Assembly: GCF_002970915.1 (NCBI RefSeq)
Contig: NZ_CP027190.1
Coordinates: 1,922,001-1,986,000 of the forward strand
Direction: 5' to 3'
Length of the DNA stretch: 64,000 bases
Source: Lactobacillus sp. CBA3605
GTDB lineage: Bacteria > Bacillota > Bacilli > Lactobacillales > Lactobacillaceae
Part shown: positions 40,917 through 44,716 of the stretch, piece by piece
How positions within the stretch are numbered: the first letter of the stretch is position 1
Layout: each line of letters opens with the position of its first letter
The notes under the pieces: generated by a model
Database searches by the model: none
Seen by the model: only the letters and a program-made list of their open reading frames with translations
What the model was told of the DNA's origin: nothing
Program-made: the position numbers and the translations under genes

Positions 40917-41582
40917 TCATTGAGCCAAGTCGTAACTTAGTTGCAAATAGTTGCGTAAGTCAGCATCGGCAACCCGATCATCTAAGATGATTGAAAACCA
41001 GTGTTGCTTGTTCATATGGTAAGCTGGAAAATAATTTTTTTGATCAATTAATGATTGCTGATCAGCTAATCGAAAATCAACGACGGTCACGATTTCATCT
41101 GAATCCAGCCCTAGCTTACGTTGTGGTATTTTAACCAGCAAGGCATACCATTTTTTGGTATCTGAGCGTCGTAAAATAGCGTTATTTGGAAATTTAGGCC
41201 ATAAGAATTCAAGCTCATTGTGATAGTTAGCCTTGACGGTTTCAATCAACCAACGAGCTTGACGTGATGGAAACATTGCGGGTTCAAAAGCCTGGTCGGC
41301 AACGGCTTGGAGTGCGTCAAGGTAGGCCTTTCGAACGCTTGCGACAAAGGCACCAGCATTGCTGGCTGCCAGATGTAGCGTATAAGGTTGCTGCGTGGCA
41401 TTATCGATTAAGGTTGTGGTAACTGTATTAGGTAGTGTCACTGTGAGGGTTAACGTAAAAGTTGGTGCTAATAATGGTTGCGACCGAATCAGGTCATGAT
41501 TGTGGCGGATAAACCCAATTTTTAATAACTGCTCCAGTTGACCACGTTGATCTTTAAAAATAGCTTGGCTCATATCATCCAT
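40917..41582 (-). CDS. MmcQ/YjbR family protein with N-terminal extension
   Basis: The C-terminal half (about 105-221) of this 221-residue protein is a MmcQ/YjbR (DUF419) domain. It is recognised by NYFPAYHMNKQHWFSIILD and the final LxLSYDLAQ, with KWYALLVKIP before it. These proteins have a CyaY-like fold and are called DNA-binding on limited evidence. The N-terminal about 100 residues form an extra domain rich in Thr and aliphatic residues, which I do not recognise. ATG at 41582 lies ten bases after TAGGAGG. It converges with whiA. Confidence 0.78.
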   Translation of the reverse strand: MDDMSQAIFKDQRGQLEQLLKIGFIRHNHDLIRSQPLLAPTFTLTLTVTLPNTVTTTLIDNATQQPYTLHLAASNAGAFVASVRKAYLDALQAVADQAFEPAMFPSRQARWLIETVKANYHNELEFLWPKFPNNAILRRSDTKKWYALLVKIPQRKLGLDSDEIVTVVDFRLADQQSLIDQKNYFPAYHMNKQHWFSIILDDRVADADLRNYLQLSYDLAQ

Positions 41583-41669
41583 GATTTGATAGCCTCCTAA
41601 AAATAACTGTTATCTATTAGTTTAACCCTGATTAAGTTTAATTAGCAGTGCTGGTATTAAATAAATCAC

Positions 41670-41699
41670 TTGACAAAAGTAAGTAAGACTCTCTATACT
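41670..41699 (+). promoter_or_regulatory. Promoter of Cys-rich leader and peptide-binding gene
   Basis: A perfect -35 TTGACA (41670-41675), an 18-bp spacer and TATACT (41694-41699). It is the best consensus promoter in the window, and predicted transcription starts near 41706. Confidence 0.8.
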
Positions 41700-41732
41700 A
41701 AAGCCATCTTATGAAATCGGAGAGACGTTACG

Positions 41733-41840
41733 ATGCAAATGCAAAAACAAGTCATGTTAATGAACTGCTGTCCATGTTGTGAAACTAACAACATGGCTAT
41801 TTGCGTCGAATTACAAGCGTCTCTACTGCATCAAAACTAA
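41733..41840 (+). CDS. Cys/Met-rich 35-codon leader peptide
   Basis: A short ORF has ATG 41733 behind CGGAGAGA and stops at TAA 41838-41840. It encodes 35 residues with five Cys and five Met; the core reads MNCCPCCETNNMAIC. Codons for the four clustered Cys (41766-41780) form the 5' side of a perfect 9-bp hairpin (CCATGTTGT 41772-41780 / ACAACATGG 41788-41796). A further stem CGATGCAAAT / ATTTGCGTCG encloses it, and AGAGACG (41721-41727, over the ribosome site) pairs with CGTCTCT (41818-41824). A terminator and then a peptide-binding lipoprotein gene follow. This is the architecture of an attenuation leader, perhaps sensing Cys-tRNA. The alternative is a small thiol or metal-binding peptide. 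The function is inference. Confidence 0.6.
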   Translation: MQMQKQVMLMNCCPCCETNNMAICVELQASLLHQN

Positions 41841-41869
41841 CGGCATTGAGCTCAAAACGTTATTTTTGA

Positions 41870-41914
41870 AACGCCTGCTTGGAATCTGACGAGATTCCTA
41901 GCAGGCGTTTTTTT
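41870..41914 (+). terminator. Strong terminator/attenuator upstream of oppA-like gene
   Basis: A 17-bp stem with one mismatch (AACGCCTGCTTGGAATC / GATTCCTAGCAGGCGTT) and a seven-T run sits between the leader ORF and the lipoprotein gene. No second promoter was seen after it, so the gene should depend on read-through. Confidence 0.88.
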
Positions 41915-41969
41915 GTTACCGATTCGAGGGTAGATCCACCAAAAAAGTAAAATAAAAGGGGCGAGAGTA

Positions 41970-43622
41970 TTGAAGAAGCGATCAGTGTTAGCAGTTATTT
42001 TTAGTGTCATGTTAGTAGCGGTGTTAGCGGCTTGTGGTAAGCAAAGTAGTCAAGCGACGACCAGCGGTAAATATGCAACTAACCAAGTTTTAAATCTTTC
42101 ATATCCAAGTTCGCTCGATTCAATTGATATTTCGACGATGTCTGGTTACGGTAGCACGGGGAATTTATTTGAGAGTCTATATCGCTTAGGTAAGGACGGT
42201 AGTGTCACGCCTGGTTTAGCGAGTCAAAGTAAAGTTTCGAAAGATGGCAAGACCTATACATTCACGATTCGTAATGCTAAGTGGAGTGATGGGTCAGCGA
42301 TTACGGCGCAAGACTTTGTATACTCGTGGCGGCGTACTGTCACGCCAGCGACTAAGTCTCAGTATGCGTATTTATTTTCAGGGATTAAAAATGCGGATGC
42401 AATTGTCGCTGGGAAAAAGCCGGCCAGCACGTTGGGCGTCAAGGCAAGTGGCAAGCATACGTTTATCGTAACGTTAGATAAGCCAATCACTTATTTTAAG
42501 AAATTAATGACTTATCCATTATTTGGCCCGATTAGCGAAGCTGCCGTAAAGAAATGGGGTAGTAAGTACGCCACGAAGGCACAATATATGTTATACAGTG
42601 GGCCCTTTAAGTTAACCGGCTGGACCGGGACCAATAATAAATGGACTTATGTTAAAAATAATCAATATTGGGATAAAAAAGTCGTTCATTTAAACAAGAT
42701 TAATTATAGTGTGAATGAAAGTTCGACGACTACTTTAAACTTGTTCCAAGAAAACAAACTGGACTTAACCCAGTTATCAAGTGAACAAGTGAAAAACATG
42801 AAATCTAATAAGGCTTACACCACATACCCCTATTCAATCACAGCCTTCTTGGTCTATAATTTCCAAGATAGTAATGCCACGATTAAAAAGGCTTTGAGCA
42901 ATCAAAAGATTCGCCAAGCTATTTCGTTATCAATTAATCGGGAACAACTTGTTAAAAATGTCATTGGGGATGCGTCCAAGACGGCTAAGACGTTTGTGCC
43001 ACAAAACCTAGCCAAAGATCCTAAAAATGGTCAAGATTTTGCCAGTGAATCGACCGTTAAAAATTCAACGTCATATAATCCAAAACTAGCAAAAAAGCTT
43101 TGGCAACAAGGATTAAAAGAGGTTGGCATTAAGCAGTTAACGATTAGCATGTTAACGTCAAATGATGAACCTAATAAACCAATCTCACAATATTTCAAAG
43201 GTCAATTGGAGAAGACTTTACCAGGGTTAACAATTAATCTATCAAATCTTCCGGCTAAGGTGGCGTCATCTCGGGCACAACAAGGTGATTTTGATGTTTA
43301 TCTGAGTGGTTGGGGTGCTGATTTCAATGACCCAATCTCGCATTTACAAATTATGACGAGTGGGAGTGGTTATAATTATGGTAAATATAACAGCAGCACC
43401 TATAACGCATTGATTAAGAAAGCCCAAAATCAAGATGCTAATAATGCCGAGGCCCGCTGGCAAGATATGTTGCAAGCAGAAAAGGTGATTATGCAAGATC
43501 AAGGGATTACGCCGATTTATCAGACGGTTTATTCCTACTTACAAAATCCTAAAGCCAAGGGCATCATCCACAATACAGCTGGAACGCAGTGGAATTACAA
43601 GTATGCTTATATGGAAAAATAA
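41970..43622 (+). CDS. oppA: Oligopeptide ABC transporter substrate-binding lipoprotein
   Basis: The 550-residue extracellular lipoprotein has a signal peptide with lipobox LAAC (Cys22), a Ser/Thr-rich linker, then the SBP family 5 fold. Family features are LNLSYPSSLDSIDI, the DGKTYTFTIRNAKWSDGS region, and SINREQLVKN. Such proteins bind peptides for an Opp permease, but no permease or ATPase gene is beside it, so it is an orphan receptor. Start TTG at 41970 follows AAGGGGCGAG. Expression probably depends on passing the upstream attenuator. Cys- or Met-containing peptides as ligand is a guess from that leader. Confidence 0.9.
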   Translation: MKKRSVLAVIFSVMLVAVLAACGKQSSQATTSGKYATNQVLNLSYPSSLDSIDISTMSGYGSTGNLFESLYRLGKDGSVTPGLASQSKVSKDGKTYTFTIRNAKWSDGSAITAQDFVYSWRRTVTPATKSQYAYLFSGIKNADAIVAGKKPASTLGVKASGKHTFIVTLDKPITYFKKLMTYPLFGPISEAAVKKWGSKYATKAQYMLYSGPFKLTGWTGTNNKWTYVKNNQYWDKKVVHLNKINYSVNESSTTTLNLFQENKLDLTQLSSEQVKNMKSNKAYTTYPYSITAFLVYNFQDSNATIKKALSNQKIRQAISLSINREQLVKNVIGDASKTAKTFVPQNLAKDPKNGQDFASESTVKNSTSYNPKLAKKLWQQGLKEVGIKQLTISMLTSNDEPNKPISQYFKGQLEKTLPGLTINLSNLPAKVASSRAQQGDFDVYLSGWGADFNDPISHLQIMTSGSGYNYGKYNSSTYNALIKKAQNQDANNAEARWQDMLQAEKVIMQDQGITPIYQTVYSYLQNPKAKGIIHNTAGTQWNYKYAYMEK

Positions 43623-44644: not shown

Positions 44645-44716
44645 TGCGCCCGGAGGGAATCGAACCCCCATTTCAAGAACCGGAATCTTACGTGCGATCC
44701 ATTACACTACGGGCGC
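44645..44716 (-). tRNA. tRNA-Arg (anticodon CCG)
   Basis: On the minus strand a 72-base cloverleaf can be folded. The acceptor stem is GCGCCCG / CGGGCGC with discriminator A. The D arm is GTGT / GCAC. The anticodon arm is TAAGA-TTCCGGT-TCTTG with anticodon CCG. The T arm is GGGGG-TTCGATT-CCCTC. It reads the rare Arg codon CGG. CCA is not encoded (ATC follows). It stands alone, with its own terminator. Confidence 0.93.

Follow-up and report, generated by a model that had tools for sequence, protein, structure and literature searches.

Cys attenuators and leader-peptide attenuation in Gram-positive bacteria have already been described, and the closest known systems include the following. The uORFC-8-2 motif of the cysS leader in Rhodobacterales, for which Cys-tRNA-dependent, ribosome-mediated attenuation has been proposed, consists of an upstream ORF with tandem Cys codons in a stem, followed by an intrinsic terminator (PMC8632094). 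Polycysteine leaderless uORFs of mycobacteria are titled cysteine-responsive (Canestrari 2020, PMC8764745, cited in PMC13236596), and cys leader peptides have been described in Actinobacteria (PMC1262725); both groups have runs of Cys codons in a small ORF ahead of sulphur genes. In the Firmicutes, leader-peptide attenuators with terminator hairpins precede the branched-chain amino-acid operons of S. aureus, L. monocytogenes and L. lactis (PMC6123439), and in Listeria the cysteine transport system CtaP has been linked to peptide import (PMC10269559). No Cys leader from Lactobacillaceae was found described in the literature searched (openly licensed papers, partly among the matches listed), which is not proof of absence, and the passages searched in PMC2965389, PMC2494555 and PMC10234816 hold nothing on such a leader.

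The region reported here precedes an oppA gene within the window, i.e. the whole stretch of 64,000 nucleotides analysed. With good confidence, we read it as a ribosome-mediated transcription attenuator in which stalling at Cys codons, and probably also at Met codons, would cause read-through into oppA. It shares with trp/leu-type attenuators a leader ORF with a Cys run, a predicted terminator and a predicted antiterminator that excludes the terminator. Compared by description, it shares with uORFC-8-2 the uORF with tandem Cys codons in a stem and the terminator that follows. However, uORFC-8-2 belongs to the Alphaproteobacteria, precedes cysS only and has two stems, whereas the present leader belongs to the Lactobacillaceae, precedes importers, places a stem (P1) over its own ribosome site and adds Met codons; its downstream gene is oppA, not cysS. 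The mycobacterial and actinobacterial leaders are described as leaderless translation attenuators that lack conserved terminator hairpins and carry their Cys runs near the stop codon (PMC13236596, PMC1262725). In contrast, the present leader is led by a Shine-Dalgarno sequence, has a terminator and an antiterminator, and carries its Cys run ∼20 codons before the stop. The branched-chain leaders are alike in being Firmicutes ribosome-mediated attenuators, but they respond to other amino acids and serve biosynthetic operons (PMC6123439) rather than importers. The features of the region are as follows.

41670..41699, + strand: sigma-70-type promoter, TTGACA-18-TATACT
41718..41741, + strand: 5′ arm of P1 (predicted anti-antiterminator), covering the Shine-Dalgarno sequence and the start codon
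41719..41722, + strand: Shine-Dalgarno sequence GGAG of the leader ORF, within the 5′ arm of P1
41733..41840, + strand: leader ORF of 35 codons, MQMQKQVMLMNCCPCCETNNMAICVELQASLLHQN
41772..41796, + strand: perfect 9-bp hairpin at the tip of P1, arms 41772-41780/41788-41796, with codons P14-C15-C16 as the 5′ arm
41798..41828, + strand: 3′ arm of P1, overlapping the antiterminator strand
41804..41818, + strand: predicted 5′ strand of the antiterminator, CGUCGAAUUACAAGC, inside the ORF
41831..41869, + strand: small hairpin P2 between the stop codon and the terminator, within the antiterminator loop
41870..41914, + strand: predicted intrinsic terminator with a T run
41877..41891, + strand: predicted 3′ strand of the antiterminator, GCUUGGAAUCUGACG, which is the 5′ arm and loop of the terminator
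41970..43622, + strand: oppA-type peptide-binding lipoprotein gene (SBP_bac_5) with a TTG start, read as the controlled gene

The promoter matches the consensus in 11 of 12 letters, and both hexamers are identical in all 22 aligned leaders. It was the only promoter-like site found on the + strand within positions 41000-42500, and the same scan placed none between the terminator and oppA. The scan total was three sites, compared with 3.4 in shuffles, so the support for the promoter comes from its conservation and not from the scan. The leader ORF has Cys at codons 12, 13, 15, 16 and 24, including the CCPCC cluster, and Met at codons 1, 3, 8, 10 and 21. Promoter, ORF with CCPCC and five Met codons, ribosome site and lack of a second promoter ahead of the lipoprotein gene had all been pointed out in an earlier, sequence-only reading of this DNA, and each was recovered here. 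Cys makes up 14.4% of the residues in 21 leaders, as opposed to 0.37% in the 45 ORFs of at least 200 amino acids in the window, and Met makes up 11.4% of the residues ahead of the last CC pair versus 2.47% in the long ORFs. That last pair falls at residues 14-16 in 20 of the 21 leaders.

Leader DNA was matched in all 21 genomes of the genus of the window, Lactiplantibacillus, each time with the ORF, while a search of plasmids with the leader peptide gave no match. The window's own genome contributes two copies to the resulting alignment of 22 leaders; the second (L141:2850-6087, about 1276360-1279590 in the genome) is 86% identical over 219 bases, and none of the other genomes among the 21 has a second match of such strength. 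Cys codons 12, 13, 15, 16 and 24 are unchanged in all 22 leaders, as is Met10; 19 of them have Met at codon 11 as well, and 18 have MMM at codons 9-11. Cys13 varies synonymously, being TGT in 11 leaders and TGC in the other 11. Gaps within the ORF follow four distinct patterns, each a multiple of three; outside it, 0 of 13 patterns are. Invariant Cys codons, a synonymous change and frame-keeping gaps form the pattern expected of a translated ORF, so the leader ORF is inferred to be translated from its conserved start.

The whole leader folds at −85.1 kcal/mol, compared with −56.7 kcal/mol (sd 4.1) for shuffled sequences, i.e. 6.9 sd better, and none of 200 shuffles folded as well. The perfect 9-bp hairpin noticed earlier, with Cys codons in its 5′ arm, is present, and all nine pairs are kept in the 22 leaders; since its pairs never vary, it shows no covariation. 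Folding also recovers the nested stem and the stem over the Shine-Dalgarno side, which had been listed separately but belong to a single long stem, P1, the pairing predicted between the start region and the end of the ORF in the absence of ribosomes. In Lactiplantibacillus, 13 alignment cells of P1 are changed on both sides, whereas shuffles average 2.8 and none of 500 reaches 13. The covariation score of P1 is 0.110, versus 0.013-0.036 for slid versions, a comparison biased towards P1, whose structure had been drawn on the first sequence. Two-sided change affects three pairs, versus 1.9 in shuffles, which is not exceptional (111 of 500 reach it), and among the 27 drawn pairs three are broken in 16 sequences each, with one more broken in 14. 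The alignment of related leaders, proposed earlier as a check, thus returned invariant Cys codons, frame-keeping indels and a covarying P1.

A long and strongly conserved structure (z −6.9), with much of the conservation at the nucleotide level, could also belong to an RNA element that is bound by a protein or a small molecule and whose ORF is never read. We regard this as highly improbable, as frame-keeping indels occur in the ORF only, the TGT/TGC change is synonymous, a Shine-Dalgarno-like stretch precedes each of 16 leaders from several genera (described below), and neither a T-box (RF00230) nor any other Rfam family reaches threshold at the leader. The latter agrees with the sequence-only reading, in which T-box elements had been looked for and not found: no RF00230 match in the window reaches the gathering score.

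Downstream of the ORF, folding predicts an intrinsic terminator with a 17-bp stem (41870-41909, one mismatch) and a T run to 41914, ahead of the gene start at 41970, as had been claimed; a simple terminator scan did not list it. The antiterminator, which had been missed by eye, was located by folding the stretch that a ribosome on the Cys codons leaves free while the terminator is unfinished. It pairs 41804-41818 with 41877-41891; 13 of the 15 pairs are present in all 22 sequences, a count that is unaffected by the changes seen at pairs four to six. The 3′ arm of the terminator drifts, mostly via G-U pairs, whereas its 5′ arm and loop are invariant in all 22 leaders, because the 5′ side also pairs in the antiterminator. 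P1, antiterminator and terminator are predicted to be three mutually exclusive pairings, a model that is supported by the sequence comparison. If instead the element merely tuned translation of the leader or decay of the mRNA, the terminator would always work and oppA would have another promoter. P1 does hide the Shine-Dalgarno sequence, which speaks for such tuning, but the absence of a listed promoter-like site between terminator and oppA, together with antiterminator strands that are kept, in several lineages with letters of their own, leaves this explanation very doubtful.

For the attenuator itself, it had been proposed that stalling at Cys codons opens the nested stems and sets read-through. 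Stalling that sets read-through is the best-supported reading, given the antiterminator, the conserved ORF and Cys codons, the covariation of P1 and the importers among the targets. The 9-bp hairpin, however, is not the switch, as it lies outside the antiterminator strand; the antiterminator competes with the long stem P1, at whose tip the hairpin sits. Nor does folding support the opening of P1 by a single stalled ribosome. When only the stalled ribosome was masked, P1 stayed (0.85-0.93) and the probability of the antiterminator was 0.00. A second mask over the initiation region raised it to 0.87 for a 3′ end at 41891 and to 0.90 for one at 41895; it fell to 0.01-0.06 once the 3′ end reached 41903, with the terminator taking over, so the switch must be kinetic. 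As the one-ribosome mask fails and the two-region mask works, we propose a stalled ribosome together with a second, initiating one. With Cys-tRNA charged, the ribosome would reach the stop codon or P1 would re-form; either way the antiterminator strand would be taken and the terminator would form. A ribosome waiting at codons 12-16, with a second one covering the initiation site one footprint behind, would keep the P1 arms apart, so that the antiterminator could form once 41891 is made and the polymerase would pass into oppA. A real ribosome may also hold the P1 arms apart by its bulk, which is invisible to folding. Because P1 hides its own Shine-Dalgarno sequence, a wholly untranslated leader would terminate.

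The product of the controlled gene matches SBP_bac_5 at 270 bits, and its nearest solved OppA-type proteins include 5kzt, 6npo and PrgZ; it would presumably aid the uptake of Cys-containing peptides. No permease gene was recognised adjoining oppA among the ORFs of the window. The neighbours include a YjbR-domain gene, identified by domain match, and genes that we take to be whiA, clpP, cggR and one resembling rpoN. A tRNA-Arg gene (anticodon ccg, 44645-44716, − strand), the sole Rfam match over threshold in the whole window, is located between clpP and the rpoN-like gene. In L. plantarum, lp_0783 is considered the orthologue of the window's oppA on the basis of locus order, being three tags before clpP, lp_0786 (PMC3842655). 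At pH 5, this oligopeptide ABC transporter gene is among 25 raised genes, with a log2FC of 2.61, alongside cysE (3.18), cblB (3.69) and cbs (3.45) (PMC7645587 Table 1), and it is also raised early with homoserine lactone (PMC6459948). In a cadmium proteome, lp_0783 rose (+2.77) and cblB fell (−3.54), the opposite of simple co-regulation (PMC5430759).

Searches of the family, covering 301 genomes at the DNA level and 397 with the peptide, turned up leaders in another two genera. In all, leaders with a CC..xNM core were found in Liquorilactobacillus, Pediococcus, a Limosilactobacillus MAG and two genera referred to here as g23 and g6. A search for the hairpin pattern in 397 family genomes returned 46 genomes (21 of them Lactiplantibacillus) in 14 of 40 genera, with many chance matches, and 15 places outside Lactiplantibacillus were examined. 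A scan of named genomes returned 25 stretches: 15 in Lactiplantibacillus, four in Liquorilactobacillus, one in Pediococcus damnosus, one in a Limosilactobacillus MAG and four chance matches in other phyla. A profile of 16 leaders matched 48 of the 397 family genomes at E ≤ 0.05, some by chance, and seven of 395 genomes of the order at E ≤ 5e-4, all within the family. Among the leaders inspected, those with ORF, hairpin and terminator ahead of a gene were counted in 21/21 genomes of Lactiplantibacillus, 7/14 of Liquorilactobacillus (g31), 6/12 of Pediococcus (g5), 3/25 of g23 and 2/22 of g6, with genus sizes tallied by hand from the rows of the hairpin-pattern search. Its presence in 21 of 21 Lactiplantibacillus genomes and its Cys content put the leader well beyond chance. 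Candidates L125, L134, L136, L138, L078, L080-L085, L188-L192 and L194 were rejected as chance or parts of other genes, as were L142-L144, L148, L149, L152-L154 and L156, the latter judged on short frames only.

The architecture was compared in 16 leaders, i.e. four of the 22 Lactiplantibacillus leaders, four from Liquorilactobacillus, three from Pediococcus, the Limosilactobacillus MAG and four from g23, with terminator arms assigned by hand. A helix between the ORF end and the 5′ arm of the terminator occurs in all 16 predicted folds (7-18 pairs, five genera), and the other genera pair different letters at the same position. Taken singly against shuffled ORF ends, the antiterminator duplex is better at p < 0.05 in seven leaders (L001, L022, L013, L121, L127, L151 and L155) and not in the other nine (L021, L118, L132, L150, L129, L145 and the three from Pediococcus). 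When terminator arms were swapped among 10 leaders (two from Pediococcus, two from Liquorilactobacillus, four from g23, L001 and L129), own arms paired at −11.1 kcal/mol and swapped arms at −7.25 kcal/mol (permutation p 5e-5), the own arm being the best partner in five of the 10 rows. P1 is present in all 16 leaders with 18-42 pairs and beats shuffled ORF ends at p ≤ 0.05 in 14 (not in L151 and L155), although it stops short of the Shine-Dalgarno sequence in L129; the Shine-Dalgarno-like stretch is weakest in L022. Both helices also appear in a g6 leader, which was folded without a control. Liquorilactobacillus does not have a single antiterminator structure; two types occur, one in L121, L127, L183 and L184 and the other in L118, L132 and L182.

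Behind the leader, oppA is found in four genera: Lactiplantibacillus, Pediococcus, g23 and Liquorilactobacillus. The OppA proteins of Pediococcus and g23 are 52-62% identical to that of the window, and those of Liquorilactobacillus 35-37% in three cases and 43% over part of the protein in a fourth; given this spread, the leader is not confined to a single OppA type. In one g23 locus (L155:1160-2400), an OsmC-like gene lies between the leader and an oppA-like gene. The second leader copy in the window's own genome precedes an ABC operon of two permeases, an ATPase and a receptor, the proteins of which match several amino-acid importer models, cystine included, all below equivalog cut-offs. The nearest matches of the receptor are 2yjp (2e-77) and 1xt8 (4e-70), whose database names say only amino-acid transporter and which we take to be the Neisseria and Campylobacter cysteine receptors. 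The operon looks like a Cys/Met-type importer. The same operon follows the leader of the Limosilactobacillus MAG (receptor 72% and permease 68% identical). In g6, the leader precedes a 448-amino-acid SDF-family protein whose best NCBIfam match, GltP, is far below its cut-off; among the best 15 plasmid-borne relatives (45-55% identical), 10 are annotated as L-cystine transporter and five are unannotated. A second Liquorilactobacillus leader with a terminator (SSCCAMCNMCF; L187, − strand) is followed by what looks like proC (pyrroline-5-carboxylate reductase), a gene matching F420_oxidored.

These targets bear on an alternative that the sequence-only reading had left open, in which the Cys-rich peptide, nascent or free, binds metal or thiols; stalling of the ribosome, or an effect elsewhere, would then come from this binding and not from tRNA charging. 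CCPCC is a plausible set of metal ligands, the CC..xNM core is invariant in 16 aligned leaders, and the protein of lp_0783 rose in the cadmium study cited above (PMC5430759). Yet the spacing of the Cys residues varies (CCPCC, CCxPCC, CNCCPCC, CSCC, CCCLVTCC and a single CC in L145), and xNM is accounted for by the RNA hairpin CATGTTG/CAACATG: among L183, L184 and L182, two leaders have N replaced by S with the hairpin kept via U-G, and one has M replaced by I. The targets examined include the L-cystine-transporter homologue and no metal gene. Peptide binding is accordingly judged unlikely by a wide distance, and stalling set by Cys-tRNA charging is retained as the preferred reading.

The ABC operon provides a link to methionine. 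Its receptor is found in four of the 21 Lactiplantibacillus genomes (E ≤ 1e-40), and in the three other than the window's own (G004, G009 and G018) the operon carries a T-box, with scores of 69-85 bits (E ≤ 4.3e-14) that are below the gathering score of 93.

L199, 508-736: T-box on the ABC operon of a relative
L200, 386-615: T-box on the ABC operon of a relative
L201, 996-1225: T-box on the ABC operon of a relative

Their specifier context, GAAGATG, is common to T-boxes of the window's own genome before metE-like (L211, L221), metA-like (L218) and metN-like (L214, L215) genes and a Met-biosynthesis PLP gene (L225), so AUG is taken as the specifier codon, which would become GAU if the register were shifted back by one base. 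The names of the downstream genes come from NCBIfam matches, most of them scoring under the cut-offs. The own genome has 27 T-box matches, eight over the cut-off and none at the leader, and seven before Met-type genes have a GAAGATG or GAAAATG context. Judged by the N-terminal 70 residues of the ORFs that follow, no cysteine-synthesis operon was recognised among these targets besides a cystathionine-synthase-like gene. By sequence, the Met T-box and the Cys/Met leader thus occupy the same place on orthologous operons. They have in common the operon, the place and the kind of signal (amino-acid supply), but the T-box (RF00230, Met type) binds tRNA directly and lacks a leader ORF, whereas the leader has an ORF and no T-box match.

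That the relatives' T-box reads Met, not Cys, counts against a signal of Cys alone, and the leader might sense Met at least as much as Cys, as a general sulphur amino-acid attenuator. This alternative has a chance somewhat short of even. The Met enrichment ahead of the last CC pair, the MMM run in 18 of 22 Lactiplantibacillus leaders and the T-box in the three relatives speak for it; however, outside Lactiplantibacillus a Met run occurs in L155 only among the tabulated leaders, while all have CC, and the Met codons are located 5′ of the hairpin arm. Because Met codons are enriched and a Met T-box sits on the orthologous operon, the signal is likely Cys plus Met, i.e. the sulphur amino acids, with Cys as the constant part. 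More tentatively, and with the balance tilted against it, the leaders may define a family-wide sulphur amino-acid regulon of Lactobacillaceae, controlled by a two-ribosome attenuator (one ribosome stalled and one queued at initiation) that is interchangeable with a Met T-box on one operon. In this reading, the Cys/Met codons lie a single ribosome footprint beyond the start, and P1, the stem over the leader's own ribosome site, would be held open only by a stalled ribosome backed by a queued one; the T-box and the leader would represent the exchange of an RNA sensor for a ribosome sensor. If so, the uptake of cystine, amino acids and peptides would be under a single RNA-level regulon across five or more genera of lactic acid bacteria, and an orphan OppA would be assigned to sulphur nutrition. 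The T-box and the leader on the same operon form a natural pair for the direct comparison of two unrelated sensors, and the folding result poses a two-ribosome switch that can be tested.

The Pediococcus loci have a further small ORF. In all six leaders inspected in this genus (L128:6466, L077 on the − strand, L146, L185, L186 and L193), a second tiny Cys-containing ORF, beginning MSPGCPC or MKSECSDC, lies between the terminator of the attenuator and oppA.
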